From: Actinorhabdospora filicis
Lineage (GTDB): Bacteria; Actinomycetota; Actinomycetes; Mycobacteriales; Micromonosporaceae
NCBI RefSeq assembly: GCF_030269765.1
Contig: NZ_BSTX01000003.1
Location: forward strand, 925,959 to 989,958
DNA: 64,000 bases
Direction: 5' to 3'
Made by a program: the position numbers and the translations under genes. Every line of letters starts with the position of its first letter. The stretch's first letter is position 1. Positions 9,495 through 33,715 of this stretch are shown here, one piece after another. The notes under the pieces are model-generated. The model did not search any database, was not told where the DNA came from, and was given only the letters and a program-made list of their open reading frames with translations.

Positions 9495-10016
9495 ATGGAC
9501 ATCGGACTCGCCCGGCTGACCGGGACCCTCTTCATCACCGCCACGCTCGCCGGGGTCCCCGGCGCGGCCCTGCTCGGCACCACCGCCGGTGCCGCCCTCC
9601 TGCTCTTGATGGCCGCCGCGATCGCGATGATCCCGGCGGCGGTGTTCCCCGTCCTCCGCCGGCACGGGGAGGCCGCGGCCGCCGGATACCTGGCCGCGCG
9701 GGTGCTGGAGGCGGTCCTTCTGCTGCCCGCCGTGGGCGGGCGGCAGGAGGACTGGACCTACGCGGGCGGCTCGCTCTTCTTCTGCCTGAGCGCCCTCATC
9801 CTCAACACCGTCCTCTACCGCGCCCGGCTCGTGCCGCGCTGGATCTCCGGCTGGGGGCTGCTGGCGGTCGCGCCGTACCTGACCGGCGCGGCACTGGTGA
9901 TGTGCGGCGTGCTCGGGACGTCCTCGCCCGCGCTGTTCGCGCTGGTGGTCCCGCTCGCGGTGAACGAGATGGCCCTGGCGGCGCGGCTGCTGGCGAAGGG
10001 CTACACCTCCGTGTAG
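9495..10016 (+). CDS. DUF4386-family integral membrane protein
   Basis: The 173-residue product has about five hydrophobic segments (TGTLFITATLAGVPGAALLG, LLLLMAAAIAMIPAAVFPVL, YLAARVLEAVLLLPAV, GGSLFFCLSALILNTVLY, then GWGLLAVAPYLTGAALVM and LFALVVPLAVNEMALAARLL). The ArgVal-Leu-Glu and SerLeuPhe-Cys-Leu pattern and the closing NEMALAARLLAKGY resemble DUF4386 proteins, whose function is unknown. It is divergent from the AfsR-like regulator and may be its target. Its last 16 bases overlap the end of the convergent giant gene. Confidence 0.75.
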   Translation: MDIGLARLTGTLFITATLAGVPGAALLGTTAGAALLLLMAAAIAMIPAAVFPVLRRHGEAAAAGYLAARVLEAVLLLPAVGGRQEDWTYAGGSLFFCLSALILNTVLYRARLVPRWISGWGLLAVAPYLTGAALVMCGVLGTSSPALFALVVPLAVNEMALAARLLAKGYTSV

Positions 10017-13729: not shown

Positions 13730-14037
13730 GGACGTGCTCCTTCGGGGGAAGCGGGGAAGGCGCTCGCCGCGACCATAAGCCGACCATGTGACACATCGGA
13801 CGGTGACCTGCCGGGCGCCGCGCGACGGTGGCCCCGGACCGCTCGCGAGCAGCGCCGACGCCGATCCGGCGTCCACAAGGGATGGATCTTGACCCTTGTG
13901 GCCTGCGGCGACCGTCGTAAAGGGACCGGTAAGGCCCGTGGCCGAATCGAGACCTGACGATCCCTTGACGCCCCCGTGAACACGGGGCAACACTGTGCCG
14001 GAAACGTTTACAGCCGACGGTCTGGAGCAGTGACGGC
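13730..14037. other. Divergent intergenic region (308 bp) between the WGR gene and the LacI operon
   Basis: It holds the GAAGGAG ribosome site of the WGR gene (13736-13743), an 11-bp palindrome ATGTGACACAT (13786-13796), a perfect 7-bp inverted repeat CCCCGTG-AA-CACGGGG (13972-13987) next to a possible -35 TTGACG (13965-13970), and one LacI operator copy (13997-14014). I see no further gene in it. Confidence 0.6.
13997..14014. promoter_or_regulatory. LacI-family operator, upstream copy
   Basis: This 18-base block contains GAAACGTTTAC, with palindromic core AAACGTTT typical of LacI/GalR operators. It is repeated exactly at 14042-14059. It lies 24 bases before the lacI-type start codon. Confidence 0.75.
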
Positions 14038-15123
14038 ATGAGCCGGAAACGTTTACAGCACGGAGACCAGAACGGCCCGCCGACGGTGCGGACCGTCGCA
14101 GCCCTCGCCGGGGTGTCCATCGCCTCGGCCTCCCGCGTCCTCAACGGCCTCGGCGCCAGCGCCGAGACCGAGCGCAAGGTCCGTGAAGCCGCCGCCAGCG
14201 TCGGCTACGTCCCCAACGCCGTCGCCCGGTCCCTCCAGGCCCGCCGCACCGACATGCTCGCCCTCGCCGTCGAGGACATCGGGAACCCCGTCTACGTCGC
14301 CATGATGCGCGCCATCGAGGAGGTCGCCGCACGTGCCGGATACCGCCTCCAGGTCCACGCCACCGGCGCCGACCCCGCCGGTGAGGTCGAACTCATCGAC
14401 GGCCTCGCCCGCCGCTACGTGGACGGCCTCGTGATCAGCCCCATCCGGGTGACCGCCGCCCACCTCACCGCCCTGGCGCGCGTCCCCACGCCCGTCGTCG
14501 TGGTCGGCAGCCTCCCCGACGACGCGCCCACCGGCGCGCGGCCCGTGGACAACGTCCGCGCCGACTCCCACACCGGCGTCGCGCTCGCCGTCGCCCACCT
14601 CGTCGCCGGTGGACGCCGCCGCATCGCCTTCGTCAACGGCCCCCTCGACACCGTGCCCGGCGCCGCCCGGCACGCCGGGTACCTCGCCGCGCTCGCCGCC
14701 AACGGCCTCATCGCCGACCCCGCGCTCATCGAGACCGGCGACTTCCACCACGCCGCCGGACGCGAGGCCACCCGCAGGCTCCTCGACCGCGAACGGCCCG
14801 ACGCGATCCTGTGCGCCAACGACCTCATCGCCGTCGGCGCCCTGCACGCCCTGCTCGCCGCCGGCAAACGCGTCCCCGAGGACGTCGCCCTGGTCGGCAT
14901 GGACGACACCGACCTCGCCGAGATGTCCTTCCCGCAGCTGTCCAGCGTCTCGCTCGGCTCGGCCGAACGCGGCCGCATCGCCGCCGAACTGCTGCTGCGG
15001 CGCCTGGCCGAACCCACCCGGCCCGCCCAGCGCGTCACCGTCGCCCCCGAGCTCAAGATCCGCGCGTCCAGCGCCCACGCCATCGCCGCCGTCCCCGCGC
15101 CGAGAATTGGAGAGACCCCGTGA
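14038..15123 (+). CDS. LacI/GalR-family transcriptional repressor
   Basis: This 361-residue protein has the LacI helix-turn-helix TVRTVAALAGVSIASASRVLNG (residues about 16-37), the hinge VRSLQARRTD-type segment and a periplasmic-binding-like sensor domain (DMLALAVEDIGNPVYVAMMRAIEE to SVSLGSAERGRIAAELLLRRL). The ATG is preceded by GGAG at 14024. Its own codons 3-8 contain a second exact copy of the 18-base operator, so it probably represses itself and the whole downstream catabolic operon; the inducer should be the imported sugar or a derivative. Its stop overlaps the GTG of the next small ORF. Confidence 0.88.
   Translation: MSRKRLQHGDQNGPPTVRTVAALAGVSIASASRVLNGLGASAETERKVREAAASVGYVPNAVARSLQARRTDMLALAVEDIGNPVYVAMMRAIEEVAARAGYRLQVHATGADPAGEVELIDGLARRYVDGLVISPIRVTAAHLTALARVPTPVVVVGSLPDDAPTGARPVDNVRADSHTGVALAVAHLVAGGRRRIAFVNGPLDTVPGAARHAGYLAALAANGLIADPALIETGDFHHAAGREATRRLLDRERPDAILCANDLIAVGALHALLAAGKRVPEDVALVGMDDTDLAEMSFPQLSSVSLGSAERGRIAAELLLRRLAEPTRPAQRVTVAPELKIRASSAHAIAAVPAPRIGETP
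14042..14059. promoter_or_regulatory. LacI-family operator copy inside the repressor gene
   Basis: An exact 18-base repeat of 13997-14014, 45 bp downstream, overlaps codons 2-8 of the repressor gene. Two sites 45 bp apart could let a tetramer or two dimers loop or roadblock transcription. Confidence 0.7.
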
Positions 15124-15341
15124 GCTTCGTCCTGGAGGAAGGCCCCGAGCCGCGCCCGTGCACCGTCCACGGCTTCGGCGGCAACGCCTCCCTGCACAAG
15201 TACGCCCCGCCCGGCGACGCCGTGCCCGTCCGCGTCCTGTCCGGGCAGCGACCCTCCCGGGGCTGGGCCGGTCCGCGCCGCCCCGCCGGGACCGGCGGTC
15301 CCGCGTTCTTCGCCACGCCCCCGATCGACCAGGTTCCGTAG
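15120..15341 (+). CDS. Hypothetical 73-residue protein coupled between lacI and the ABC permease gene
   Basis: A GTG at 15120 overlaps the lacI stop and is preceded by a good ribosome site GGAGAG (15109-15114). The frame ends at TAG 15341, three bases before the permease ATG, which lacks a strong site of its own, so translation of this ORF may feed the permease. The product is Gly/Pro/Arg-rich with a segment TVHGFGGNASLHKYAPPGD and no transmembrane helix or known domain. It may be a real small protein, a translated leader, or a remnant of a larger gene. Confidence 0.5.
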   Translation: MSFVLEEGPEPRPCTVHGFGGNASLHKYAPPGDAVPVRVLSGQRPSRGWAGPRRPAGTGGPAFFATPPIDQVP

Positions 15342-15344
15342 GCG

Positions 15345-16259
15345 ATGACCGCGCTCAACGACGAGCTCCCCCTCGCCCGCCGTCGGCGCGCCCGGACCGG
15401 GTACGCCTACTTCCTGGTGCTGCCCGCGCTGCTGCCGGTGCTGTTCCTGTCGGTGGTCCCGCTGGTCAACGGCATCTACCTGGGCTTCACCGACGCGCGC
15501 GCCGGACTCAACCAGACCACCCACTTCACCGGTCTGGACAACTACACCGGCCTTCTGTCCAACGAGCAGTTCTGGGCCAGCTTCAAGATCGGCCTGATCT
15601 GGGCGGTCAGCGTCACCGTCATCCAGTTCTTCGCCGCCCTCGGCCTGGCCCTCCTGCTCAACCTGAACCTGCGGCTGCGCTGGCTGGCCCGTACCCTCGC
15701 CCTCGTCCCCTGGGCGATGCCGCCGGTCATCGTCGGCATCATGTGGCAGCTCGTCTACCACCCCGACGCCGGGCTCATCAACGAGGCGCTCTACCGCGTC
15801 GGCCTGGAATCCCTCGGCACCAACTGGCTCGGCGACTTCTCCACCGCCCTGCCCGCCGTGATCATCGTCGGCGTGTGGGCCGGGATGCCGCAGACCACCG
15901 TCGTGCTCCTCGCCGGGCTCCAGGGCGTCCCCGGCGAACTCCACGAGGCCGCCGCCGTCGACGGCGCCGGTGCCTTCCGCCGCTTCTGGAGCATCACGCT
16001 CCCGCAGCTGCGGCCGGTCATCGTCGCCATCACCTCCCTCGACTTCATCTGGAACTTCAACTCGTTCGGCCTGGTCTACGTCCTCACCGCGGGCGGACCC
16101 GGCGGACGCACCATGCTGCCGATGCTCTTCGCCTACGAAGAGGCCTTCAAGTACGGCCACTTCGGCATCGCCGCCGCCATGGGCAACGTCATGGTGATCA
16201 TCATCGTCGCCCTGCTCGCCGTCTACCTGCGGCGCCGGATGAGGGAGGCCAGCGCGTGA
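15345..16259 (+). CDS. ABC sugar transporter permease (MalF/UgpA type)
   Basis: This 304-residue inner-membrane permease has six predicted helices, beginning AYFLVLPALLPVLFLSVVPLV, and the cytoplasmic EAA loop near the C-terminus, HEAAAVDGAGAFRRFWSITLP, which docks on the ATPase. It belongs to the carbohydrate CUT1 family and would form a heterodimer with the next gene product. No ATPase gene is present in the operon; CUT1 importers in actinomycetes often share a distant MsiK-type ATPase. The stop overlaps the next GTG (GTGA). Confidence 0.9.
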   Translation: MTALNDELPLARRRRARTGYAYFLVLPALLPVLFLSVVPLVNGIYLGFTDARAGLNQTTHFTGLDNYTGLLSNEQFWASFKIGLIWAVSVTVIQFFAALGLALLLNLNLRLRWLARTLALVPWAMPPVIVGIMWQLVYHPDAGLINEALYRVGLESLGTNWLGDFSTALPAVIIVGVWAGMPQTTVVLLAGLQGVPGELHEAAAVDGAGAFRRFWSITLPQLRPVIVAITSLDFIWNFNSFGLVYVLTAGGPGGRTMLPMLFAYEEAFKYGHFGIAAAMGNVMVIIIVALLAVYLRRRMREASA

Positions 16260-17095
16260 ACCGCACCTCGAAGTGGTACTGGCGAGTCCTGCAGTACCTC
16301 GCCCTCGCCGGGTACCTGCTGTTCCTGTCGTTCCCGCTGCTGTGGATGCTGTCCACGTCCTTCAAGAAGCCGCAGGAACTGGTGGAGCTGCACCCCAGCT
16401 TCATCCCCCGCGACCCGACGCTGGCCAACTACGCCACCGCCTTCACCGAGCAGGACCTGGGCCGCGCCACGCTGAACAGCCTCCAGGTCGCCATCGCCTC
16501 GGCCGTCATCACCGTGATCATCGCGCTCCCGGCGGCCTACGCGCTGGCCCGCTTCCGGACCCGCGTCAACAAGGTCGCCACCGCCTGGATCCTGCTGTCG
16601 CAGCTGTTCCCGTTCATCCTGCTGGTCATCCCCATGTTCATGATCCTCAAGCAGGTCAAACTCACCAACAGCCTGACCGGGCTGACCCTCGTCTACGTCG
16701 TGTGGTCCCTGCCCTTCGCGCTGTGGATGCTCCAGGGCTTCGTCCGCAACATCCCCCGCGAACTGGAGGAGGCCGCCGCCGTCGACGGCGCCACCCGCTT
16801 CCAGACGCTGTGGCGGATCATCGCCCCGCTGCTGGCGCCCGGCGTGGTCGCCGCCGCGCTGTTCAGCTTCATCAGCGCCTGGAACGAGTTCTTCTTCGCC
16901 CTCGTGCTGCTGAAGAAACCCGAGATGGCCACCCTGCCGCTGGCGCTGGCGAAGTTCGTCGGCATCGAGGGCATCTCGCGGCTCGGGCCGCTGGCCGCCG
17001 GATCGCTCATGGCGACCATCCCGAGCCTCATCTTCTTCGCGATCCTGCAGCGCCGCCTCACCTCCGGCGGCATGGCCGGCGCGGTCAAAGGCTAG
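16256..17095 (+). CDS. ABC sugar transporter permease (MalG/UgpE type)
   Basis: This 279-residue protein starts at a GTG overlapping the previous stop. Six helices are seen, from YLALAGYLLFLSFPLLWMLSTSFK, then the region QVAIASAVITVIIALPAAYALARF, with the EAA loop LEEAAAVDGATRFQTLWRIIAP. This is the second membrane half of the CUT1 importer. The family takes up oligosaccharides, glycerol phosphate and related polyols; specificity lies mostly in the binding protein encoded next. Confidence 0.9.
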   Translation: MNRTSKWYWRVLQYLALAGYLLFLSFPLLWMLSTSFKKPQELVELHPSFIPRDPTLANYATAFTEQDLGRATLNSLQVAIASAVITVIIALPAAYALARFRTRVNKVATAWILLSQLFPFILLVIPMFMILKQVKLTNSLTGLTLVYVVWSLPFALWMLQGFVRNIPRELEEAAAVDGATRFQTLWRIIAPLLAPGVVAAALFSFISAWNEFFFALVLLKKPEMATLPLALAKFVGIEGISRLGPLAAGSLMATIPSLIFFAILQRRLTSGGMAGAVKG

Positions 17096-17133
17096 CCCAC
17101 CACCCCCTCGCACACCCCCTAGGAGAGAACGCA

Positions 17134-18420
17134 ATGAAGCGCCTCGCCCCACGCCGCGTCGCGGCGGCCGCCCTGGCGGCCACCCTCGCGGTCGGCACCC
17201 TCGCCGCCTGCGGCAGCGGAGACGACTCCGCCGGCCCGATCAAGCTGAAGTTCCTCAGCCTGGCCTGGCAGGAAGAGTCCGTCGCCGCCAACAAGAAGAT
17301 CGTGGAAGCCTGGAACGCCGCGCACAGCGACGTGCAGATCGAGTACATCCAGGGCTCCTGGGACTCCGCGCACGACCAGCTCCTCACCTCCTTCGAAGGC
17401 GAGGACGCGCCCGACATCATCCACTACGAGGCCGCCCTCGCCGGGCAGTTCGCGCAGCAGGGTTACCTCGCCGACGTCAAGGACCTCATCCCCGCCGACC
17501 TCAAGGGCGACATCGGCGACAACGTGTGGCAGACCGTGACCTCCGGCGACGGCAAGGTCTACGGCGTCCCGTTCCTGCTGGAGTCGCAGGCCGTCATCGC
17601 CAACAAGAAGCTCCTCGACGAGGCCGGCATCCCCGTCCCCACCGCCGACAAGCCGTGGACGTGGGACGAGTTCCAGGCCGCGGCCAAGACCCTCACCAAG
17701 GGCGAGACCTTCGGCACCGCCTGGCCCGTGAAGCAGCCGGTCAACCGGGTCCTCAACCTCAGCCTCAACTTCGACGGCAAGTACTTCCAGAAGAACGGCG
17801 ACAAGAACCAGGTCGTCTTCGGCGCCGCCGAGCAGGAGGTGCCCAAGCGCATCCACGACATGGTCTACACCGACAAGTCCGCCGCGCCCGACGCCCTCAC
17901 CATGGGCGGCACCGACCCGCTGCCCGGCTTCTTCGGCGGCAAGTACGCCATGCTGCCCGGCTCCATCTACCTGCGCCAGCAGATGAAGGAGCAGGCCCCC
18001 GCCGGTTTCGAGTGGGTCACCCTGCCCCCGCTGAAGGGCCTCAGCCAGAACCAGGCCGCCAACCCGCAGACCCTCTCGGTGGCCACCCAGTCGGAGCACA
18101 AGGAGGAGGCGATGAAGTTCATCGCCGAGTTCCTCAACCCGGCCAACATGGCCGAGCTCGCCAAGGGCGACTGGCTCGTCCCCACCGGCAAGAAGGCCGG
18201 TGAGGAGCTGCTGAAGTCCACCGGCGGCAAGGACGGCTGGGACGTCGCCGTGGCCAGCGCGGGCTCGCTCGTCCTGGCGCCCTTCCAGACGGTCACCCAG
18301 TTCCCCGAGTGGAAGTCCAAGATCGCCACCCCGGCCTTCCAGGAGTACTTCGCGAACAAGATCTCCCTCGACGAACTCGGCAAACGCCTCGTCGAGGGCG
18401 GCAAGGACATCCTCAAGTAA
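17134..18420 (+). CDS. ABC sugar-binding lipoprotein (extracellular solute-binding protein family 1)
   Basis: The 428-residue precursor has a lipoprotein signal ending in the lipobox LAAC (about residue 24), after which a two-lobe solute-binding fold begins (IKLKFLSLAWQEESVAANKKIVEAWNAAHSDVQIEYIQGS). Family 1 features include EDAPDIIHYEAALAGQFAQQGYLADV and GGKYAMLPGSIYLRQQM. An AGGAGAG site precedes the ATG. It would capture the substrate outside the cell for the two permeases. Its sequence does not disclose the ligand. Lys is frequent compared with neighbours, usual for exported binding proteins. Confidence 0.9.
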   Translation: MKRLAPRRVAAAALAATLAVGTLAACGSGDDSAGPIKLKFLSLAWQEESVAANKKIVEAWNAAHSDVQIEYIQGSWDSAHDQLLTSFEGEDAPDIIHYEAALAGQFAQQGYLADVKDLIPADLKGDIGDNVWQTVTSGDGKVYGVPFLLESQAVIANKKLLDEAGIPVPTADKPWTWDEFQAAAKTLTKGETFGTAWPVKQPVNRVLNLSLNFDGKYFQKNGDKNQVVFGAAEQEVPKRIHDMVYTDKSAAPDALTMGGTDPLPGFFGGKYAMLPGSIYLRQQMKEQAPAGFEWVTLPPLKGLSQNQAANPQTLSVATQSEHKEEAMKFIAEFLNPANMAELAKGDWLVPTGKKAGEELLKSTGGKDGWDVAVASAGSLVLAPFQTVTQFPEWKSKIATPAFQEYFANKISLDELGKRLVEGGKDILK

Positions 18421-18456
18421 GACCCCACCAGCCATCGTCCCCTTTGGAGTTAAATC

Positions 18457-19605
18457 GTGACCAGTGCCGCACTGGTGGACAGGTCGATCGGCTGCCTCGT
18501 GGGCGCCGCCGTGGGCGATGCCCTCGGCGGCGCCACCGAAGGCGCGCTGCCCGAGCAGATCAAGGCCCGCTACGGCGGGTGGGTCGACGGCCTCGTCGGC
18601 CCCTTCCACGAGGACTGGCGCACCGCCCGTCCCACCGCGCCCTACCACAAGGGCGACGGCCACATCACCGACGACACCCTGATGACGCAGGCGCTCATCC
18701 GCGTCTACGTGGCCAAACGCGACCACCTCGACGCCTACGACATCGCCGAGCGGCTCGTCCCCGACCTGATGAACCACCGCGTCTACATCCCCGACATGGA
18801 ACGCGAAGCGGTCACCCTGCACCGCCTCGCGCTGGCCGAGCGGCACATCGTCGCCAGCCTGTTCCACGCCCACGCCGACCCGCGCGAGGCCGGGCACGGC
18901 AACATCGTCAACTGCGGTGCGGCGATGTACATGGCGCCCATCGGGATCGTGAACGCGGCCAACCCGGCCGGGGCCTACGCCGAGGCCATCGAGATCGCCG
19001 GGGCGCACCAGATCAGCTACGGACGCGAGGCCGCGGGGGTCTTCGCTGCCGCCGTCGCCGAGGCCATGGCCCCCGGCGCGACCGCCGCGTCCGTCGTGGA
19101 CGCCACCCTCGCCGTCGCCAAGGACGGCACCCGCCAGGCGATCGAGGCCGTCCGCGACGCCGTGCGCGGGCAGAGCGACTGCCTGGAGGCGATCCCGGTC
19201 GTTCGCGCCGCCATCGCGCCCTACGACACCGTCGGCGAGGCCTACCGGCAGCCCGGGCTGGGCGCCCGGCGTCCCTCGCGACTGCACTCCATCGAGGAGC
19301 TGCCCGCCGCGCTGGGCATGCTGCTCATCGCCGACGGCGACTACGCCAAGGCCGTCCTCGGCTCAGTCAACTACGGCCGCGACGCCGACTCCACCGCCAC
19401 CATGGCCGGCGCGATCGCCGGTGCCCTGGGCGGGGAGAAGGCCGTGCCCGCCGACTGGGCCGAGACGGTGGCCACCGCCAGCCGCGTCGACCTGCACGGC
19501 CCGTCGCGCGAGCTGGCCGCCGTCGCCGAGGAGGTCTTCGCCGCCGACCTGCGCCGCCGGGGCGAGCACGCCGCGCGCTTCGCGTCGCTGACCGGGGCGG
19601 CCTGA
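18457..19605 (+). CDS. ADP-ribosylglycohydrolase family protein, copy 1
   Basis: This 382-residue cytoplasmic protein has an intact binuclear Mg site: GHITDDTLM with Thr71-Asp72-Asp73 at the N-terminal half and NYGRDADSTATMAGAIAGAL with Asp309 and Asp311 near the C-terminus. The family hydrolyses N- or O-glycosidic bonds to ribose, classically ADP-ribosyl-protein bonds. Its place directly after a sugar importer and before a ribokinase-like gene suggests that it cuts an imported ribosyl- or glycosyl-compound rather than reversing protein ADP-ribosylation. The GTG start has GGAG 12 bases upstream. The next gene begins 2 bases after its stop. Confidence 0.88.
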   Translation: MTSAALVDRSIGCLVGAAVGDALGGATEGALPEQIKARYGGWVDGLVGPFHEDWRTARPTAPYHKGDGHITDDTLMTQALIRVYVAKRDHLDAYDIAERLVPDLMNHRVYIPDMEREAVTLHRLALAERHIVASLFHAHADPREAGHGNIVNCGAAMYMAPIGIVNAANPAGAYAEAIEIAGAHQISYGREAAGVFAAAVAEAMAPGATAASVVDATLAVAKDGTRQAIEAVRDAVRGQSDCLEAIPVVRAAIAPYDTVGEAYRQPGLGARRPSRLHSIEELPAALGMLLIADGDYAKAVLGSVNYGRDADSTATMAGAIAGALGGEKAVPADWAETVATASRVDLHGPSRELAAVAEEVFAADLRRRGEHAARFASLTGAA

Positions 19606-19607
19606 GC

Positions 19608-20939
19608 ATGAGAGTCACGTGGATCCAGCCGGAGGACCTCGTCCCGCACGCGCTGGCCACCGCGCGCCTCGACGGGCACGACGTGTCCGGCATCGAGGCG
19701 CGCTGGGTCGCGGGCGGTGGAACCGCGGCGGTTCCGGCGAAGGGGGCCTCGCCCGAGCGGGCCCCCGCGCCGGTGCGGGAGCTGGCCGCCGTCCTGCTGT
19801 CCGAACTGGACGCGCTGGCGGCGCTCCCGCGTCCCGGGGAGCCGGACGCGCTGTGGGAGCTGCCGGACCTCGGCCTGCCGCGCGAGACGACCTTCGACCG
19901 GCTGCACGGCGCGTGGCTGGGCCGGGCCGCCGGGTGCGTCCTCGGCAAGCCCGTGGAGGGCCTGCCGCGCGAGGGGATCGAGGAGATCGCCCGGGCCACC
20001 GGGAACTGGCCCCTCAAGGGCTGGTTCACCGCGCACGGGCTGCCCGAGGAGATCGCCGCCCGGCGTCCGTGGAACCGGCGGTCGAAGGGCACCAGCCTCG
20101 CCGAGAACATCGACGGGGCGCCCGAGGACGACGACCTCAACTACCCGCTGATGGCGATGCTGCTGCTGGAGACGCGGGGGACCGGCTTCACCGCCGAGGA
20201 CGTCGCCCTCTCGTGGCTGGACCTGCTGCCGGCCGGGCGCACGTTCACCGCCGAGCGGGTCGCCTACCGGAATCTGCTGCTGGGCATGGTCCCGCCACAG
20301 ACGGCGACGACCGGGAACCCCTTCGCCGAGTGGATCGGGGCGCAGATCCGCACCGACCTGTACGGCTGGGCGCGTCCCGGCGACGTGGCCGCGGCGGCGT
20401 CCCTGGCCTACCGGGACGCGGTCGTGAGCCACGTCCGCAACGGCGTGTACGGGGCGATGTTCGCCGCCGCGCTGGGGGCGGCGGCGGTCGTGGTGTCCAC
20501 GGTGGACGAGGTCCTGGACGCCGGGTTCGCGGTGCTGCCGCCGTCGTCCCGCATCGCCGTGGCGGTGCGGGAGGCGCGCGAGCTGGCCGCGTCCGAGCCG
20601 GACTGGAACCGCGTCCTGGATGTCCTGCACGCCCGCCACGGGCACCTGCACTGGGTGCACGTGCTGAACAACGCGGCCCTGGTCACGGCCGCGCTCGTGC
20701 ACGGCGGCGGCGACTTCGCCAAGACCATCACCGCGACGGTGACCGGCGGCTGGGACACCGACTCCAACGGCGCCACCGTCGGCGGGATCGTGGGCGCGCT
20801 GACCGGCGCGTGCGCGCTGCCGGAGTACTGGAAGGCGCCGCTGAAGAACCGCCTGGCCACCTCGATCCCGGGCCTGGACGGCGTCGGTTTCGACGAACTG
20901 GCCCGGCGCACGCTCGCGCTGGCGAAGGTGGACGCATGA
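19608..20939 (+). CDS. ADP-ribosylglycohydrolase family protein, copy 2
   Basis: This 443-residue paralogue starts at ATG 19608. It has a long N-terminal extension (about 105 residues, TWIQPEDLVPHALATARLDG) before the all-helical core TTFDRLHGAWLGRAAGCVLGKPVEG. The first metal motif is changed from TDDT to EDDD (173-176, in APEDDDLNYPLMAMLLLE), and the second is GGWDTDSNGATVGGIVGAL with Asp383 and Asp385. Both sides of the metal site keep acidic ligands, so it is probably active, but on a substrate different from copy 1. Its stop overlaps the kinase ATG (ATGA), implying coupled synthesis. Confidence 0.85.
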   Translation: MRVTWIQPEDLVPHALATARLDGHDVSGIEARWVAGGGTAAVPAKGASPERAPAPVRELAAVLLSELDALAALPRPGEPDALWELPDLGLPRETTFDRLHGAWLGRAAGCVLGKPVEGLPREGIEEIARATGNWPLKGWFTAHGLPEEIAARRPWNRRSKGTSLAENIDGAPEDDDLNYPLMAMLLLETRGTGFTAEDVALSWLDLLPAGRTFTAERVAYRNLLLGMVPPQTATTGNPFAEWIGAQIRTDLYGWARPGDVAAAASLAYRDAVVSHVRNGVYGAMFAAALGAAAVVVSTVDEVLDAGFAVLPPSSRIAVAVREARELAASEPDWNRVLDVLHARHGHLHWVHVLNNAALVTAALVHGGGDFAKTITATVTGGWDTDSNGATVGGIVGALTGACALPEYWKAPLKNRLATSIPGLDGVGFDELARRTLALAKVDA

Positions 20940-21832
20940 GCATCGATGTGGTCGTCCTCGGCAGCGCCAACATGGACCTGGTCGCCACCGCGCCCACCCT
21001 CCCGAAGCCGGGCGAGACCGTGCTGGGGCACGGGTTCGCCACGGTGCCGGGTGGGAAGGGCCTGAACCAGGCGGTCGCGGCGGCGCGGGCGGGGGCGCGC
21101 ACGGCGTTCATCGGGGCGGTGGGGGATGACGCTTTCGGCGCGCAGCTGCGGGAGGCGCTGACCGCTGACGGCGTGGACGTGTCGGGCCTGCGCGAGGCTC
21201 CGGGGGCGTCCGGGGTGGCGCTGATCGCCGTCGACGACGCCGGTGAGAACAGCATCGTGGTCGCCCCCGGCGCCAACGCCACCGTGGACGCGCTCACCGC
21301 CGCCGACCTCGGCGGCCTGAGCGGCGCACGGGTCCTGCTGTGCCAGCTGGAGGTCCCCGAACCGGCCATCGTGGCCGCTGGGAAGGCCACCGGTGACACC
21401 ACCCTCATGATCCTGAACGCCGCCCCCGCCCGGCCCCTGAGCGCCGAGCTGCTGGCCACCGTCGGGCTGCTCGTGGTCAACGAGGTCGAGGCGGCCATGC
21501 TGTCCGGCTGGGACGCCGACCCGCTCACCGCGCTGCTGCGCGTCGTCCCGCGCGTCGTGGTCACCCTCGGTGGCGCCGGATCCCGTTACGCCGACGCCGA
21601 AGGCGCCCGGCTCGACGTCCCCGCCCCGAAGGTGCCCGTCGTCGACACCACCGGCGCCGGCGACTGCTTCACCGGCGCCCTGGCCACCGCCATCGCCGAG
21701 GGCCGCCCCATGGAGGAGGCCCTGCGGTGGGCCACCGCCGCCGGGGCGCTCGCCGTCCAGAAGACGGGCGCGACCACGTCCCTGCCCCACCGCGCCGACA
21801 TCGACCAGCTCTACGAGGTGACCTACCGGTGA
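20936..21832 (+). CDS. PfkB-family sugar kinase (ribokinase-like)
   Basis: This 298-residue kinase has PfkB signature 1, GGKGLNQAVAAARAGARTAFIGAVGDD, and signature 2, DTTGAGDCFTGALATA, with catalytic base Asp243. The N-terminal VVVLGSANMDLV is typical of ribokinase. It would phosphorylate a sugar, probably ribose or a similar sugar freed by the two glycohydrolases, with ATP in the cytoplasm. At 298 residues it is ribokinase-sized. Other PfkB substrates (fructose, 2-keto-sugars, nucleosides) cannot be ruled out. The stop overlaps the GTG of the next gene. Confidence 0.87.
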   Translation: MSIDVVVLGSANMDLVATAPTLPKPGETVLGHGFATVPGGKGLNQAVAAARAGARTAFIGAVGDDAFGAQLREALTADGVDVSGLREAPGASGVALIAVDDAGENSIVVAPGANATVDALTAADLGGLSGARVLLCQLEVPEPAIVAAGKATGDTTLMILNAAPARPLSAELLATVGLLVVNEVEAAMLSGWDADPLTALLRVVPRVVVTLGGAGSRYADAEGARLDVPAPKVPVVDTTGAGDCFTGALATAIAEGRPMEEALRWATAAGALAVQKTGATTSLPHRADIDQLYEVTYR

Positions 21833-23799
21833 GCCGTTTCAACCCCTACGTCCCGCGCCCCATCGACTCACCCGCCGAGGTACCCCTCGATCCCGGCGCG
21901 GACCTGTCGGTGCTGGACGACGCGAAGATCTTCGCGGTGCCCGCCGATCCCGCCGACCTGCCCGCCTGGCGCGCGGCGATCACCCGCTGGCGCGAGGAGG
22001 CGCGGGTCCGCATCGCCTACGACGACGAGCTGTACGCGCGCCCGGAGTTCTCCTGGATCCCCGGCAACTACGTCGTCTGCCTCGCCTGGCTGTGGGACGA
22101 GCTGCTCTACGACCACGACGCCGGGCACTTCACCCCCGAGCGGTTCCTGGACGCCGCCGAGCGCGACTTCGGCGGCTTCGACGGCGTCGTCCTGTGGCAC
22201 GCCTACCCGGTGATCGGCATCGACGACCGCAACCAGTTCGACTTCTACCGCGACGTCCCGGAGCTGCCCGCGCTGGTCGCGGCCTTCCAGGCGCGCGGCG
22301 TGCGGGTCTTCATCGACTACAACCCGTGGGACGTGGGCACCCGCCGCGAGGCCGCCGACGACATCGCCGCCGTGGCCGCCACGGTGGAGTGGCTCGGGGT
22401 CGACGGCGTCTTCCTCGACACCATGAAGGAGGGCGGGCAGGCGATGCGCGCCGCGCTGGACGCCGTCCGGCCCGGCGTCGCCCTCGAAGGCGAGTCGCGC
22501 CTGCCGCTGGAGCGCGTCACCGACCACCCGATGTCGTGGGCGCAGTGGTTCGCCGACAGCGACGTGCCCGGCGTGCTGCGCGCCAAGTGGTTCGAGCCCC
22601 GGCACATGGCCCACCACACCCGCCGCTGGCACCGCGACCACTCCGGTGAGCTGCACTCGGCCTGGCTGAACGGTTCCGGGATGCTGGTGTGGGAGAGCGT
22701 CTTCGGCTCCTGGGTCGGCTGGACCGAGCGCGACAAGGGCCTGCTGCGGGCCATGCGCCGGGTCTGGGACTCCTACGGCGCCTGGCTCACCGAGGGCGAG
22801 TGGACGCCGCTCGCCGACACCGCCGGAAGCGACGTGCACGCCTCCCGCTGGGTGCGGAACGGCACGCCACTGTGGACGGTCGCGAACACCGGCGCGGAAC
22901 TGGACGGGCCCTGGATCGTCGCCGACGAGCTGCCCGGCCACCGCTGGTACGACCTGACCACCGGCGCCGAGCTGACGCCGGTGCCCGCCGGGGACGGCAA
23001 GATCGCCGTGGGCGGCCCGCTCGCCGCCGACGGCGTCGCCGCCGTCCTGGCCAGCCCGGTCCCCGTGGTCCTGCACGCCTTCGAGCCCGCCCCGCGAGAC
23101 ACCACCCACCCGGCCCGGACCGCCGCCCGCATCGGCTTCGAGGACGCCTACGCCGACGAACTGCCCGAGGGCATGGCGGCCGTGCCCGCCGGGCGGCGCG
23201 AGCTGACCGTCCGCTACCGGCTGCGCGAGACCGGCCTGTACGGCGAGGTGCCCTATGTGGACGAATGGAAGCCGCTGCCGCCGCGCCTGCACAATGAGCA
23301 CCGCCTCATCCGGCCCGTGGAACTGGGCCTGTACGGCATCGGCATCCGCGAGGTGACCAACGCCGAGTACGCCGCCTTCCTCGCCGACTCCGGATACGGC
23401 GGACCGCACGGGCGCTTCCTCGCGCACTGGCGCGACGGCGCGCCCGTCCCCGGCACCGAGCACGAATCCGTGACCCATGTGGACCTCGCCGACGCCCGGG
23501 CCTACGCGTCCTGGCGCGAACTGCGGCTGCCCACCGAGGACGAGTGGCAGGCCGCCGCCGAGGACGGGCTCCTCGAACGCGGCGAACCCCTGGTGTGGAA
23601 CTGGACCGAGAGCGAGCACACCGACGGCCGCACCCGCTTCACGATCCTCAAGGGCGGCTCCGCTTACGAGGCCCGGGGTTCCGACTGGTACATCGACGGC
23701 GGCCGCAAGGATCCCGACGTCAGCGTCAAGTTCCTCAACCCCGGCGCCGGGCTGGCCCGCTCGTCCTCGATCGGCTTCCGCGTGGCGGTGAGCCTGTGA
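21829..23799 (+). CDS. TIM-barrel glycosidase-like domain fused to SUMF1/FGE-fold domain
   Basis: In this 656-residue protein, residues about 60-270 look like a TIM-barrel hydrolase (FDGVVLWHAYPVIGIDDRNQFDF, RGVRVFIDYNPWD, GVDGVFLDTM, VALEGESR), with candidate acids Asp in FLDTM and Glu in LEGE. A beta-rich middle follows, and then a SUMF1/formylglycine-enzyme fold (about 490-656: IGIREVTNAEYAAFL, RLPTEDEWQAAA, WNWTES, FTILKGGS, SSSIGFRVAV). The paired catalytic cysteines of true FGE are absent: SSS stands where Cys is expected. The SUMF1 part is therefore more likely a binding module. No signal peptide is seen. It is coupled by overlap on both sides. Confidence 0.75.
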   Translation: MSRFNPYVPRPIDSPAEVPLDPGADLSVLDDAKIFAVPADPADLPAWRAAITRWREEARVRIAYDDELYARPEFSWIPGNYVVCLAWLWDELLYDHDAGHFTPERFLDAAERDFGGFDGVVLWHAYPVIGIDDRNQFDFYRDVPELPALVAAFQARGVRVFIDYNPWDVGTRREAADDIAAVAATVEWLGVDGVFLDTMKEGGQAMRAALDAVRPGVALEGESRLPLERVTDHPMSWAQWFADSDVPGVLRAKWFEPRHMAHHTRRWHRDHSGELHSAWLNGSGMLVWESVFGSWVGWTERDKGLLRAMRRVWDSYGAWLTEGEWTPLADTAGSDVHASRWVRNGTPLWTVANTGAELDGPWIVADELPGHRWYDLTTGAELTPVPAGDGKIAVGGPLAADGVAAVLASPVPVVLHAFEPAPRDTTHPARTAARIGFEDAYADELPEGMAAVPAGRRELTVRYRLRETGLYGEVPYVDEWKPLPPRLHNEHRLIRPVELGLYGIGIREVTNAEYAAFLADSGYGGPHGRFLAHWRDGAPVPGTEHESVTHVDLADARAYASWRELRLPTEDEWQAAAEDGLLERGEPLVWNWTESEHTDGRTRFTILKGGSAYEARGSDWYIDGGRKDPDVSVKFLNPGAGLARSSSIGFRVAVSL

Positions 23800-24986
23800 T
23801 CCCCGCCCTCAACGGCGTCAAGGTCCTCGACCTCGCCACCCTCTTCGCCGGGCCCCTGGCCGCGGCGATGCTCGCCGACTTCGGCGCCGAGGTCATCAAG
23901 GTCGAGCACCCCAAGCGGCCCGATCCCTCGCGCGGGCACGGCCCGGCCAAGGACGGCGTCGGACTGTGGTGGAAGGTCCTCGGCCGCAACAAGCGGACCA
24001 TCGCCGTCGACCTGTCCACCGAGGACGGCCGGGATCTGCTCATCGCGCTGGCAGCCGAGGCCGACGTGGTCATCGAGAACTTCCGGCCGGGCACCCTGGA
24101 GCGCTGGGGCCTCGGCTACGACGTCCTCTCGGCGGCCAACCCGGGCCTCATCCTCACCCGCGTCACCGGCTTCGGCCAGGTCGGGCCCTACGCGTCCCGC
24201 CCCGGCTTCGGCACCCTCGCCGAGGCCATGAGCGGCTTCGCCGCCGTCACCGGCGAACCCGACGGGCCGCCGACCCTGCCGCCCTTCGGGCTCGCCGACG
24301 GCGCGGCCGCGATGGCCGCCGCCTTCGCCACGTCCCTTGCACTGAACGCGCGGACGGCCACCGGGCGCGGCCAGGTAGTCGACCTGGCCATCATCGAGCC
24401 GATCATGGCGCTGCTCGGGCCGCACATCACCTGGTTCCAGCAGCTCGGCTACGTCCAGCCGCGCACCGGCAACCGCTCCAGCAACAACGCTCCCCGCAAC
24501 ACTTACAGGACCGCCGACGGGCGCTGGCTGGCGGTGTCCACCAGCGCGCAGAGCATCGCCGAGCGGGTGATGACCCTCGTCGGGCGGCCCGACTACCTCG
24601 ATGAGCCGTGGTTCGCCACCGGCTCCGGCCGCGCCGCGCACGCCGACGAACTGGACGCGGCGGTCGCCGCGTGGGTGGGCGCGCGGCCCGCGTCAGAGGT
24701 CGTCGCCGCCTTCGAGGAAGCGCAGGCCGCCGTCGCGCCGGTCTACGAGATCACCGACATCGTCGCCGATCCCCAGTACCGCGCGCTCGGTACCGTCCAC
24801 AGTGTCCCCGACCCCGAGCTCGGCGAGGTCGCCATGCAGAACGTGCTGTTCCGGATGAGCGGCACGCCCGGCGAGATCCGCTTCGCCGGCCGCCCGCACG
24901 GCGCCGACACCGACGCGGTCCTGGGCGAACTGGGGCTGTCCGGCGACGAGATCGCCGCGATGCGGGAGAAGGGCTCGATCAAGTGA
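23796..24986 (+). CDS. Family III CoA transferase (CaiB/BaiF type)
   Basis: This 396-residue enzyme has the family III start VKVLDLATLFAGPLAAAMLADFGAEVIKVEHP, the region NKRTIAVDLSTEDGRDLLIALAAEADVVIENFRPGTLERWGLGY, and the probable catalytic Asp168 in FGLADGAAAM. Family III enzymes move CoA between carboxylic acids through a mixed anhydride on that Asp. With the next gene (CitE-type) it would activate a carboxylate to a CoA ester for cleavage. Both ends overlap neighbours by four bases, so its acid substrate presumably comes from the same pathway as the imported glycoside. Confidence 0.9.
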   Translation: MIPALNGVKVLDLATLFAGPLAAAMLADFGAEVIKVEHPKRPDPSRGHGPAKDGVGLWWKVLGRNKRTIAVDLSTEDGRDLLIALAAEADVVIENFRPGTLERWGLGYDVLSAANPGLILTRVTGFGQVGPYASRPGFGTLAEAMSGFAAVTGEPDGPPTLPPFGLADGAAAMAAAFATSLALNARTATGRGQVVDLAIIEPIMALLGPHITWFQQLGYVQPRTGNRSSNNAPRNTYRTADGRWLAVSTSAQSIAERVMTLVGRPDYLDEPWFATGSGRAAHADELDAAVAAWVGARPASEVVAAFEEAQAAVAPVYEITDIVADPQYRALGTVHSVPDPELGEVAMQNVLFRMSGTPGEIRFAGRPHGADTDAVLGELGLSGDEIAAMREKGSIK

Positions 24987-25813
24987 TCCTGACGTGGTTG
25001 TACGTCCCCGGGCACCGGCCCGACCGCTTCGTGAAGGCGGTCACCTCCGGCGCCGACGCGGTGATCCTGGACCTGGAGGACGCCGTCGCCGCGTCCCGCA
25101 AGGCCTACGCGCGCGCCGCCGTCGCCGAGTTCCTCGCCGCCCCCTCCGACGTCCCGGTGTACGTGCGCGTCAACGAGCTCACCGGACCCGACGTCGCCGC
25201 CGACCTGGCCGCCGTGGCCGGGCTGCCCGGCCTGGCGGGGCTGCGCCTGCCGAAGGTGCAGTCGCCGGAGGAGGTGCTGCGGGCCGCCGAGACCGGCGCG
25301 CCCGAACTGCACTGCCTGGTCGAGTCGGCCCTCGGCGTGGAGTCGGCTTTCGCGATCGCCACCGCGCACCCGTCGGTGGCCGGGATCGGCCTGGGCGAGG
25401 CCGACCTGTCGGCCGACCTGAACGTGAGCGAGGAGGCGGGCCTGACCTACGCCCGCAGCCGGATCGTGGTCGCCGCCCGCGCCGCCGGGCTCGCCCCACC
25501 GGCCATGTCGGCCTACACCAACCTGTCCGAACTGGACGGACTGGAGGGCCTGGCCGCCTCGTGCCGGATCGGCCGCGCCCTGGGCTTCCTCGGCCGCGCC
25601 GCCATCCACCCCCGGCAGCTCCCGGTGATCGCCGAGGCGTTCCGCCCCTCGGAGTCCGAAGTGGACAAGGCCCGGGCGCTGCTGGAGGCCATGGCCGGAG
25701 CCGAGAAGCGCGAGTCCGGGACCGTGGTCCTGCCCGACGGCCGCTTCGCCGACCGCGCCATGATCGCCGCCGCGAGCCGCACCGTGGCACTCGCGGAGCG
25801 TGAGGCGGCCTGA
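24983..25813 (+). CDS. HpcH/HpaI-fold CoA-ester lyase (CitE-like)
   Basis: The 276-residue TIM-barrel protein begins TWLYVPGHRPDRFVKAVTSGADAVILDLEDAV, the signature of CitE-like malyl-CoA/citramalyl-CoA/beta-methylmalyl-CoA lyases, with Mg-binding Glu in the segment LHCLVESALG and Asp in GLGEADLSADL. The end FLGRAAIHPRQLPVIAEAF is also typical. It would split a 3-hydroxyacyl-CoA made by the preceding CoA transferase into acetyl-CoA (or propionyl-CoA) plus an oxoacid. It is the last gene of the operon; 39 bases separate it from a gene of different base composition. Confidence 0.88.
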   Translation: MILTWLYVPGHRPDRFVKAVTSGADAVILDLEDAVAASRKAYARAAVAEFLAAPSDVPVYVRVNELTGPDVAADLAAVAGLPGLAGLRLPKVQSPEEVLRAAETGAPELHCLVESALGVESAFAIATAHPSVAGIGLGEADLSADLNVSEEAGLTYARSRIVVAARAAGLAPPAMSAYTNLSELDGLEGLAASCRIGRALGFLGRAAIHPRQLPVIAEAFRPSESEVDKARALLEAMAGAEKRESGTVVLPDGRFADRAMIAAASRTVALAEREAA

Positions 25814-25852: not shown

Positions 25853-28800
25853 ATGCCCGAATCGCACCTGAACCTGGTCCGGCTTCTGGCCAGGCGGCAG
25901 ACCGGATCGCTCATGCCGCCGATGGCTCAGACGCTTCTGCTTCCGTTCGATCAGCTGGACCCACTAGTGTTCGAACGTGTCGTCGCCGAGGTCATGTGGT
26001 TGGTGGATCGACTCAGTGAGATCCGCGTTGTGGGTCGTCCGGGCCAGTATCAGGGCGGCATTGATCTCATCGGCCGCCGTGACGGCGCTCATCATGTCTA
26101 CCAGGTGCGTCGTATCCACTCCCTCAGCGCTACGGCGCTGAGGAAGGCCGTGACCGACTTCGCCGGGCCGACACGCAGGGACGTGCCGGAGGCGGACTGG
26201 GCGGAGCGACCTTGGCAGGCCGTGCGGTTCGTGCTGGCCGCCGGATGCCGTGTGGAAGACGTGACGGTGGAGGAGGAGCTGGCGAAGCTCCAGCAGGAGT
26301 ACGCCGGTGACCTCGATATCGCGCTCTACGACGCCGGCAGTCTCTCGCTGGCTTTGCGTGAGCGGCCGCGAGTGGTTCACGGGATCTTCGGTCCTGAATG
26401 GGGCAGAGCGTTCACCGGGGTGGTGGATGAGCCGTCGGGCGCCCTTCCAAATGTCGTAGGGCTGCTCTACGACCCGGTTGAGGCGTTGGGGCTGGGCACG
26501 GTCGCCGAGAGATGTGCGGAGCTGGCCCAGGAAGATCCGCGTGCATCTGCCGAACTATTGCTGGCTCTCGGAGAAGAGCTGCGTTCGGCGGGCTTTCCGG
26601 GACATGCCGACATGTTCGCTACACGAGCAAGGGAGCGCTTCGAGCAGGCGGGTGCGGAGACCGAGGCCTTCCGGATCGCGGTGACGCGGGCGGTACGTGG
26701 GCTTTGCGATGGACGTACGGAGCATCCGGACATCACCGCCGTCGAAAGGCTCACCCTGAGGCTGGCGGAGCCCGAAAGGGCGCTGGGTCGCGTGATCACC
26801 GCCGCCGGGAATTGGGGGCTGGCGGGGATCGACGTGGACGCGGTGGTGGCGGACCTGACCGTGGCCGCAGAGGCCCAGTGCGATGACTTCGAGCTCCTCG
26901 TGATGGTCGTCGCGGAGCAGATCATCGCGGATGAAGACCCGCGGGACGACCAGAGCCTCATGATCGGGCCGCTGGAGTGCGCGATCAGTCGTGCCAAGGC
27001 GGATGTTCGGGCCCGCCTGATGTGCTGCCTGGCGGATCTGCGGGTACAGGGTGGAGTCGGGCCGGAGGCCGCGTTCGCACACGTGCTGACCGAGATCGCC
27101 ACCGGACGACTGCCGGAGGACTTCGGCGTGCTCGCTCATTTGCGGCTCGGCCGAGCACATGTGATGTCGGGACTGGCGAGGGCGGCGATCGATTCCTACC
27201 GGAAAGGGGTCGTGATCGCCGGGCGTTCCGGCTATCCGGGTGACGCCCGTGACGCGCTTCTGGCCATCGCCTATCTGACCATCATGTCTCCGGAGACCTT
27301 CGAGGAGATCCAGGCGACCCAGATGGCTGCAAAGGCGCTCGACCCCCACGGGCGTCGTTTCCTGCCGGAATCGGCTGGCTCTGCCCTCACCGCCTTCTCT
27401 GACCTGAAACGCGGGGCCATGCGTGGTGCCCTTCCCGCTGCACGAGCATGGGTGCGGAAGGCACGTGCGCGAGGCGCGCTCTGCGATGAACTCTGGGGCC
27501 GCCAGACTCTGGGAGAGGCATTCGAGGCATCGCGAAGCCCGTTCGGCGCGGTCCTGAATCTCGTGCTCGCAGGACAGGGAGACAAGGCCGTCGCGGTCGT
27601 CAAGGGCGAAGCGCGCCACCTTGATCTCATCGATCTACTGGATCACCCGGCTGTAGCAGTGCGCGCCGCTGCTCTGAAGGTCTACGCGGCACAGGCGGAC
27701 AGGATTCCCGACGATCAGGTTGCCGTCGTCGGGGAGAAGCTGCTTCACGTGCTCCGCGGCGAGGTTTCGCATCCGCCGTTCGTGGACGACAAGCGTGCCG
27801 CCCTGAAGGCCATCGCCGCCCTCGATCACCGAATCCCGATGAGCGTCGGAGCGGCGGCGCTCGATTTCGCGGAACTGTTCATACCTCGCGAGGACGGTAA
27901 GAGCCTCTTCATCGATGACGCCGTGGTGGCGTTGCTCGGAGCTTGCGCAGAGGCCGATCGCTCGGAGTCCGCTCGGGCGGGGATCGCGCTGGTGGCAGCT
28001 TGGCGACATGATTTGCGCGGTGTGGAGACGGCACTTCTCGGGTTGTACGACCCGCCCGATGTCGTGAAGACGGAGCTCAAGAATGCGGCTGGCGAGGGAT
28101 CGCGATCGGCCCTCTACATCCTGGCGGAATGGAACATCGTTCCGCCGGAGGCGATCGAGCTGCTGGTCGACCTCGCGCAGGGCGTTCTGGATGAGCCGGT
28201 CGGTACGGCGCGCACGTCCTACGCCATTGGTACCGGAGTCCCCCGGTTCGCCTCGCTGTTGTCGAAGGCCGTGGAATCGGGAGAAGCGCCACCAGAGCTC
28301 CTCGAACTCCGGGATCGTGTGGTTGCCCGCCTCATGAGCTGGGCCGAGGACCGGCTGGACACGGCTGAGCGCCGCGAGGACGCGACGAGCGCCATTTCGG
28401 TACTGGGAGCGGCTCTCACCGACGACGAGCGCAGAGTTTTGACAAATCGTCTTCTGCGACTTCACGGATCGCCCGGGGAACACGATCTTGACGCCTTCGA
28501 ACGCCGATCGTCGCACCCGCTGAGCGGACTGCGGGTCAGAACGAACGGCCGTCTCCTGTCGGTCTCGGCCTTGGCAGCCGCAGCGGCACTGGCAGTGGAC
28601 GCGGATGCTCTAGAGGAGATAGAGGGGTGGGTCCTGCAGCACCTCGATGTCGATGCCGATGACCAGGAGGCGATGCGATTGATGGCTCACGCCCTCGCCT
28701 GGGTGAGCCGGTCTCGACCGGTTCCCCTGGCGGCCTTCCGTAGCCATCAGTCTCGGCACATTCGGGAAGCCGCCGTCCATTGCTGGGGTCATTCGGTTGA

Positions 28801-33611: not shown

Positions 33612-33631
33612 CTCTCTCCAAAAGGGACGAT

Positions 33632-33657
33632 GGCGCGCGGAGGGGGTTCCGCGCGCC
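33632..33657 (-). promoter_or_regulatory. 5' leader stem-loop of the secreted nuclease mRNA
   Basis: GGCGCGCGG (33632-33640) and CCGCGCGCC (33649-33657) form a perfect 9-bp stem 21 bases before the start codon. On the minus strand a TATAGG box (33664-33669) lies just upstream, which would put the transcript start at the base of the stem. A CCACG-TTCG-CGTGG repeat (33672-33685) sits in the spacer. Confidence 0.55.
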
Positions 33658-33715
33658 AGCATCCTATAGATCCACGTTCGCGTGGTCGATGGAGAGTGAA
33701 CACGAAACGAAGAAG

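Follow-up and report, generated by a model that had tools for sequence, protein, structure and literature searches.

A LacI-regulated operon of Actinorhabdospora filicis that may break down an imported acylated furanosyl glycoside

We analyzed a stretch of 64,000 nucleotides from Actinorhabdospora filicis (contig NZ_BSTX01000003.1 of assembly GCF_030269765.1, forward-strand positions 925,959 to 989,958; hereafter, the window), the genome of which comprises 7.2 Mb in 19 contigs, and examined an operon of ten genes that may serve the catabolism of an imported sugar conjugate. Frames read from the DNA gave ten intact open reading frames (ORFs) on the + strand, from a lacI-type repressor gene to a gene for a CitE-type lyase with its last base at 25813. 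The repressor gene (14086..15123, +; Pfam LacI/Peripla_BP) is followed by genes for two ATP-binding cassette (ABC) permeases of the sugar type (15345..16259 and 16256..17095, both +; Pfam BPD_transp_1) and for a MalE-like substrate-binding protein (17134..18420, +; Pfam SBP_bac_1) with a lipobox-like N-terminus read by eye. Next are arh1 (18457..19605, +) and arh2 (19608..20939, +), encoding two hydrolases of the ADP-ribosylglycohydrolase family (ARH1 and ARH2; Pfam ADP_ribosyl_GH), the former with its presumed metal-ligand motifs intact and the latter with an N-terminal extension, and then genes for a ribokinase-like PfkB kinase (20936..21832, +; Pfam PfkB) and for a putative glycoside hydrolase with a GH13-like fold fused to a shortened FGE/SUMF1-like domain (21829..23799, +; predicted structure and Pfam FGE-sulfatase), referred to below as the TIM/SUMF1 protein. 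The operon closes with genes for a CaiB-type (family III) coenzyme A (CoA)-transferase of the FG-xxx-E subfamily (23796..24986, +; Pfam CoA_transf_3) and a CitE-like CoA-ester lyase (24983..25813, +; Pfam HpcH_HpaI). An earlier note on this DNA had named the same gene set and families, and all ten genes were found with the corresponding Pfam matches. The 4-base stop/start overlaps that it described as joining most of the genes are present at five of the nine junctions (permease 1/permease 2, arh2/pfkB, pfkB/TIM-SUMF1, TIM-SUMF1/caiB and caiB/citE), and the remaining four junctions are, in gene order, gaps of 221, 38, 36 and 2 bases. No ABC ATPase gene was found among the ten, and the solved relatives of the binding protein in a structure-database comparison indicate no single ligand. 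A conserved gene of ~72 amino acids (aa) between lacI and permease 1 (ORF at 15120-15344) was rejected, as no tblastn match was obtained in the related loci.

A LacI-type operator, CCGGAAACGTTTACAG, occurs at 13998..14013 (copy 1) and 14043..14058 (copy 2), neither assigned a strand; both rest on a genome-wide exact-match search and on conservation upstream of related lacI genes. The genome has no other exact copy; two further sites were found at two mismatches and the reversed control gave none. The palindrome AANCGNTT was detected upstream of lacI in 49 of 53 related loci, compared with 44 of 3672 equally long windows from elsewhere in the same loci, these control windows being mostly coding DNA and therefore an imperfect background. 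The count derives from 54 named loci with a usable lacI match, 50 of them positive, from which one locus (L071; L and G numbers are our handles for loci and genomes) was dropped because it begins inside lacI; the four misses (L103, L109, L111 and L114) are all from Glycomyces. Before related lacI genes, the palindrome commonly reads TGGAAACGTTTCCA or TGTAAACGTTTACA. The lacI start had been placed at 14038, but the GTG at 14086 is likelier because operator copy 2 falls within the region of the earlier start and because the operators of related operons lie at similar distances before the aligned start. The best NCBIfam score of the repressor is RbsR-like, far below the cut-off. Together with the conservation of the gene set described below, the operator signature supports the reading of the operon as one LacI-regulated catabolic unit, as the earlier note had proposed.

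We searched 298 genomes of the order and found the TIM/SUMF1 protein in 29 and close relatives of ARH1 in 31, the A. filicis genome included; all 29 genomes are contained in the 31 (the Fisher value of 3e-38 overstates the significance, since related genomes are non-independent). The repressor, both permeases, the binding protein, ARH1, ARH2, TIM/SUMF1, CaiB and CitE were present in 19 of 19 extended regions (L037-L055), 16 of which kept the kinase, and in a twentieth region (L056) nothing was found beyond a diverged copy of TIM/SUMF1 and a lacI-like match. When named genomes were scanned with the TIM/SUMF1 alignment, at least 342 relatives were confirmed; the best 80 loci were kept, and 58 of these are actinobacterial. 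Although anchored on TIM/SUMF1 alone, all 58 contained both ARH1 and ARH2, and most contained CaiB with CitE (57/58), the binding protein (57/58), the permeases (56/58), the repressor (54/58) and the kinase (49/58), and 19 of 58 an esterase; loci shorter than the operon were scored as misses, and the ARH, CitE and transporter genes in L078 and L084 are too divergent for the score cut-offs of these counts and of the residue counts, but were detected in separate locus searches. The genera with the operon include Kribbella, Amycolatopsis, Cellulomonas, Promicromonospora, Microbacterium, Leifsonia, Nocardioides and Pseudonocardia. Metagenome bins named Devosia, Pelagibacterium and Trueperaceae also have operons in which ARHs, CaiB, CitE and TIM/SUMF1 were found and no kinase was matched. 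The other 19 of the 22 non-actinobacterial loci have TIM/SUMF1 without a CaiB or CitE match, several of them on short contigs, and one (L128) starts with a short pfkB-like stretch. Because the set, and largely its order, is kept in other genera and families, it is not a chance grouping. Co-occurrence beyond this genome, on which the earlier note had made its proposal depend, is thus widespread, and a restriction of the set to one genome was rejected by both scans.

The alignments used for residue counts include a few repeats (101 rows, 98 of them distinct, for TIM/SUMF1; the other five families, checked likewise, also have three fewer). ARH1 and ARH2 matched PF03747 with 168.5 and 163.7 bits, respectively (cut-off 26.2), and their acidic motifs (TDD/DDD and DxDS), which we take to be metal ligands, are kept in 81 of 81 rows for each protein, Glu117 of ARH2 being kept in 80 of 81. 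The DraG/Tri1 equivalog cut-offs of NCBIfam were missed by both (ARH1, 55 versus 337 and 53 versus 490 bits; ARH2, 21 and 19 bits). A role of the ARHs as regulators of protein ADP-ribosylation was rejected on the basis of these missed cut-offs, no ADP-ribosyltransferase being found among the ten genes. The kinase is the best ribokinase-like protein of the genome (271 bits; next, 156), and D14, GGKG, N44, E139 and D243, presumably the ribose-site and catalytic (D) residues of ribokinase, are kept in 69 of 69 rows. Its best solved relatives in a structure-database comparison are ribokinases, in line with the ribosyl conjugate that had been put forward in the earlier note.

The TIM/SUMF1 protein (656 aa) matched FGE/SUMF1 (PF03781) at residues 492-597 with 58.6 bits (cut-off 23.3). 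For the barrel part no Pfam family was significant (the best was GH97 at E 0.15), and the GH13 model was not listed at a maximum E of 10, a range in which the HMMER filters drop most matches above 0.1. Hence, of the TIM-barrel/SUMF1 fusion noted earlier, the SUMF1 part is borne out by Pfam and the barrel by the predicted structure, which has a mean predicted local distance difference test (pLDDT) score of 89 and a predicted template modelling (pTM) score of 0.90. The best Foldseek E-value for the barrel is 3.8e-10, and in a list with Z scores, which is a re-ranking of the Foldseek matches, residues 46-411 aligned best among GH13-type enzymes with Z 19.5 (root-mean-square deviation 3.7 Å, 321 aligned residues, 12% identity). 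The structure shows a fold class, not a family, because fucosidases, xylanases and an alpha-galactosidase are likewise among the matches; membership of GH13 is compatible with it. Asp197, after strand 4 of the predicted barrel, and Glu222, which ends strand 5, are invariant in 102 of 102 rows, and we take their positions to be those of the nucleophile and the acid/base of GH13. GH13 enzymes carry an Arg two residues ahead of the nucleophile; at that position before Asp197 no Arg was found, with Phe in 25 of 26 rows and Asn in one. We read the protein, with moderate confidence, as a putative retaining glycosidase of an undescribed family.

In the operon form of the protein the SUMF1-like domain is shortened, the loop between the RLP-EW and VWN motifs being short. 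The oxidase activity of FGE/SUMF1 depends on a copper-binding Cys pair, and the shortened domain is perhaps a binding module. A relationship of TIM/SUMF1 to ergothioneine or selenoneine synthases was rejected, as only the C-terminal FGE part matches, and weakly, and the barrel is a separate domain. Apart from this, twin-arginine-like leaders were seen by eye in the homologues from four bins (L119, L123, L130 and L133; two of Verrucomicrobiae, one of Bryobacteraceae and one unclassified), which suggests exported versions of the protein.

CaiB matched CoA_transf_3 (PF02515) with 406 bits (cut-off 23.3) and CitE matched HpcH_HpaI (PF03328) with 109 bits (cut-off 25). In CitE, R62, E114, E139 and D141, presumably metal and substrate residues, are kept in 78 of 78 rows; the equivalog cut-offs for CitE (152 versus 443 bits) and RipC (141 versus 375 bits) were missed, and its best solved relatives, 8khl and 9nzb, are both named acyl-CoA lyase beta chain. 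A close CaiB relative was found in 59 of the 298 genomes of the order, including 30 of the 31 with ARH1, so that 29 of the 59 are without ARH1, and six genomes (G046, G138, G163, G184, G193 and G259) have two CaiB matches each. From these relatives we picked by hand a subset of 20 regions outside the operon (L168-L187; those of G138 and G259 are second copies in operon-bearing genomes). MmgE/PrpD accompanied CaiB in 15 of them (in one case at 28% identity), CitE in 14, a PF04199 cyclase also in 14 and an amidohydrolase in 11; at E 1e-10, MmgE/PrpD, the cyclase and the amidohydrolase were not matched in the operon loci. Judged from gene content, this looks like a second conserved set for another acid or heterocycle pathway. 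CaiB and CitE stand with a membrane transporter gene in L170, where it is of the DctM type, and in L171. LivK-type transporter matches were observed in five of the 20 regions.

According to PMC12290011 and PMC9875883, the itaconate-methylsuccinate cluster of P. aeruginosa and C. necator combines a transferase that accepts (S)-citramalate, an (S)-citramalyl-CoA lyase and MmgE/PrpD, and includes a hydratase and a dehydrogenase. This cluster (Ict, Ich, Ccl, MmgE/PrpD and acyl-CoA dehydrogenase) resembles the present operon in that a CoA-transferase stands beside a CitE-type lyase, and the relatives of the window CaiB often occur with CitE and MmgE/PrpD; however, the operon has no hydratase, dehydrogenase or MmgE/PrpD and has instead a sugar importer, ARHs and a putative glycosidase. 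By analogy, the neighbours of the CaiB relatives favour branched dicarboxylates and a citramalate-type acid, which agrees with the citramalate-like acid offered as an example in the earlier note.

Several variants of the operon were observed. According to gene tables, six regions from rhizobial plasmids have LacI, two permeases, a binding protein, ARH1, a further ARH of ~700 aa (unannotated in the Pseudochrobactrum region) and an ATPase, and the operon continues with a CoA-transferase and a CoA-ester lyase in Ensifer sp. PDNC004 and Sinorhizobium sp. B11 and with a ribokinase in Agrobacterium HAMBI 105. The annotation of Deinococcus aetherius shows a ribokinase together with two ARHs. Extra ARHs and a kinase, with no match for TIM/SUMF1, CaiB or CitE, characterize the region of Nonomuraea gerenzanensis, and further ARHs occur at L071, L073, L077 (by eye) and L085. 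The TIM/SUMF1 gene of a planctomycete bin is immediately preceded by a pair of ARH-like genes, all three with hydrophobic leader-like starts by eye. The esterase recurs outside the actinobacterial loci in the Pelagibacterium bin and in a Chloroflexi bin, where it adjoins TIM/SUMF1 on the opposite strand; two esterase genes were put to Pfam and both matched PF00756, the other counts being based on similarity to one of them. Such a pattern is expected if molecules of a single class are taken apart piecewise by the ARHs, TIM/SUMF1 and the esterase, and the kinase and CaiB/CitE process different products.

Two further arrangements were noted. In genome G025 (L165, 5202-11417), divergent relatives of ARH1 and ARH2 stand beside lactate-racemase-type (LarA), UPF0261 and phosphoenolpyruvate (PEP)-hydrolase-like genes, which we read, from gene content, as a possible different back end for the same hydrolases in place of CaiB/CitE. 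In two Kribbella loci (L089 and L096), arh1 and arh2 are separated by a pair of genes (~2.4 kb) in reverse orientation.

On balance we infer, ligand, acid and every reaction included, and with slightly more confidence than doubt, that this is a LacI-autoregulated operon for the catabolism of an imported acylated furanosyl glycoside. An inducer would release LacI and allow transcription, and the binding protein and the two permeases, with a shared ATPase encoded elsewhere, would import a small oligosaccharide-like conjugate, which in about one-third of species the PF00756 esterase would perhaps trim before import. In the cytoplasm, ARH1 and ARH2 would cleave off furanose residues, either ribose or a cis-diol furanose resembling it, the TIM/SUMF1 protein with its GH13-like fold would release another glycosyl unit, and the ribokinase-like enzyme would phosphorylate the freed pentose. 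The CaiB-type transferase would convert the freed acid, most likely a citramalate-type branched hydroxy-dicarboxylate, to a CoA ester, which the CitE-type lyase would cleave into acetyl-CoA and a 2-oxo acid (pyruvate, if the acid is citramalate). The presence of the esterase in 19 of the 58 loci suggests that the acid may be joined through an ester rather than a glycosidic link. All steps of the scheme given in the earlier note (import, cleavage, phosphorylation and splitting of a CoA ester) fit the gene set; however, that scheme assigned no role to TIM/SUMF1, and since this protein resembles a glycoside hydrolase, the compound probably has more components than a single sugar and a single aglycone.

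A number of observations weigh against this reading. The ARH members of known function act on ADP-ribose conjugates, not on food glycosides, and the kinase is below the cut-off of the ribokinase equivalog TIGR02152 (271.8 versus 299.65 bits). The Foldseek TM-scores of the best barrel match are 0.36-0.39, computed over full chains. Family III CoA-transferases have a catalytic Asp (Asp169 of formyl-CoA transferase), which is absent from CaiB, where Gly139 is aligned in 83 of 83 rows; Glu143, four residues further on, is invariant in the same rows. Because Gly likewise replaces the Asp in 20 of 20 selected CaiB relatives from other gene sets, Gly139 is a mark of the subfamily rather than of decay, and the alignment leaves enzyme function compatible with it. 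In CitE, Asn64 and Asp145 vary (kept in 73 and 62 of 78 rows, respectively). The hydratase (Ich) needed by the published itaconate cluster is absent among the ten genes, and no search for it was made in the 20 CaiB regions; as the operon is without a hydratase, an acid already bearing a hydroxyl, such as citramalate, would be the simplest fit. Gene content also varies: the esterase is missing from the window and from 39 of the 58 actinobacterial loci, the kinase is missing in nine of the 58, and L102 has no kinase, CaiB or CitE. The operon of G111 (L164) has no TIM/SUMF1 match, with the rest of the operon present and two extra ARH-type matches, and the kinase and CaiB/CitE are both unannotated in three of the six rhizobial regions (Phyllobacterium, Nitratireductor and Pseudochrobactrum), for which the gene table is incomplete. 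Because the kinase, CaiB/CitE and TIM/SUMF1 are each missing in some versions, it is not certain that all versions share one fixed substrate.

The same genes could be explained in other ways. We consider it quite unlikely that the operon salvages a ribosylated or modified nucleoside or an oligomer derived from ADP-ribose, in which case the ARHs would cut N- or O-ribosyl bonds, the kinase would trap ribose and CaiB/CitE would degrade an acid borne by the base. The ARH-family assignment, the ribokinase-like kinase and RbsR as the best regulator score are consistent with such salvage, as is a reduced version in Mycolicibacterium arabiense (one ARH, a LacI regulator, a transporter and a ribokinase); however, the importer is of the MalE-like oligosaccharide type, the GH13-like hydrolase is kept, the esterase is recurrent, and no nucleobase-degrading family was found by Pfam among the ten genes. 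It is also unlikely that the sugar is a furanose other than ribose, for example apiose or another cis-diol furanose, with the specificity of the kinase and the ARHs shifted and the remaining pathway the same. Although the score of the kinase under the ribokinase cut-off would accord with this, the inspected residues of the presumed ribose site are all as in ribokinase, and the best solved relatives are ribokinases. Two neighbourhoods point toward such a sugar: a Sphingopyxis plasmid where a TonB receptor, a ribokinase, TIM/SUMF1, a GH127-family gene and a CoA-transferase stand together with no ARH match, and the unclassified bin L133, where TIM/SUMF1 adjoins a DUF2961 gene. The GH127 and DUF2961 neighbours of TIM/SUMF1 count in favour of the acylated furanosyl glycoside as well.

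A further explanation detaches the acid from the imported molecule and regards CaiB/CitE as a bystander acid-splitting cassette captured by a sugar operon. The occurrence of CaiB relatives elsewhere with MmgE/PrpD, the cyclase, the amidohydrolase or the DctM-type gene, the genomes with a close CaiB and no ARH1, and the versions in which CaiB/CitE is unannotated (some rhizobial regions) or without a match (Nonomuraea) would agree with such a capture. However, we judge it very unlikely, as CaiB/CitE is kept in nearly all of the actinobacterial loci among the best 80, is joined by 4-base overlaps in the window and is present in the divergent Ensifer and Sinorhizobium operons as well.

The catabolism of an acylated furanosyl glycoside, which we prefer, can also be set against known systems. 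PMC10819704 describes yegTUV of E. coli as a transporter, the ADP-ribosylglycohydrolase YegU and the PfkB-type YegV, with functions unknown; it shares with the operon an ARH-family hydrolase, a putative sugar kinase and a transporter, but has a single ARH, no acid-splitting genes, no glycosidase, and another regulator and transporter class. The example of RikA of Salmonella (PMC13432705) shows that an uncharacterized PfkB enzyme can prove to be a ribokinase. TIM/SUMF1 resembles the GH13-type alpha-glycosidases (clan GH-H fold) in its predicted barrel with a C-terminal beta domain, strand-4 Asp and strand-5 Glu, and differs from them in its low identity (12%), the missing Arg before the Asp, the missing Pfam GH13 match and the extra FGE-like domain. 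Actinobacterial LacI-regulated sugar ABC operons rely on a shared ATPase and likewise combine a LacI regulator, a binding protein, two permeases and intracellular hydrolases, whereas the hydrolases in the window are of the ARH family and the operon ends with a CoA-dependent acid pathway. No paper describing this gene combination, or one pairing an ADP-ribosylglycohydrolase with a CoA ester lyase or with SUMF1 and a glycoside hydrolase, was found in the open-licence literature; the earlier note likewise knew of no named pathway with this set. The main text of a survey of LacI regulons (PMC4052901), in a search by term, gave no occurrence of ADP-ribosyl, ribokinase, CoA transferase or citrate lyase.

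Elsewhere in the window, a large ORF (up to 1330 aa) lies divergently and directly upstream of the operon (10001-13993, - strand) and has no Pfam match at E 0.01, and a 1046-aa protein with weak HEAT-repeat matches is encoded ~40 bases past citE (25853-28993, + strand) and was not counted in the operon. A 1155-aa protein (31257-34724, - strand) combines a lamin-tail domain with an endonuclease/exonuclease/phosphatase domain. A 3115-aa ORF (46118-55465, + strand) resembles a nonribosomal peptide synthetase, with three AMP-binding, two condensation and three carrier stretches and a terminal NAD_binding_4 domain of the reductase type.

A LacI-controlled operon for sugar uptake and catabolism is in itself of a well-known kind, and there is a realistic chance that the pathway and a hydrolase family in it are new. 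A bolder interpretation, which we advance tentatively and hold to be possible rather than probable, is that an acylated furanosyl oligosaccharide, plentiful in soil or plants, is broken down by an undescribed and widespread pathway in which ARH-fold enzymes (two to four per operon) would act as food-degrading furanosidases, TIM/SUMF1 would found a new glycoside hydrolase family and the CoA-transferase/lyase pair would burn the acyl group. Because the repressor, the binding protein and the enzymes are clustered, the question of the substrate is directly testable. Since the operon is maintained in many actinobacteria and in some alphaproteobacteria, its substrate may be a natural compound that is common but has so far been overlooked. 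If the proposed pathway is true, a protein family known mainly for ADP-ribose chemistry would have a catabolic role, TIM/SUMF1 would be a candidate for a new glycosidase family, and the operon would link the metabolism of a sugar with that of branched dicarboxylates.

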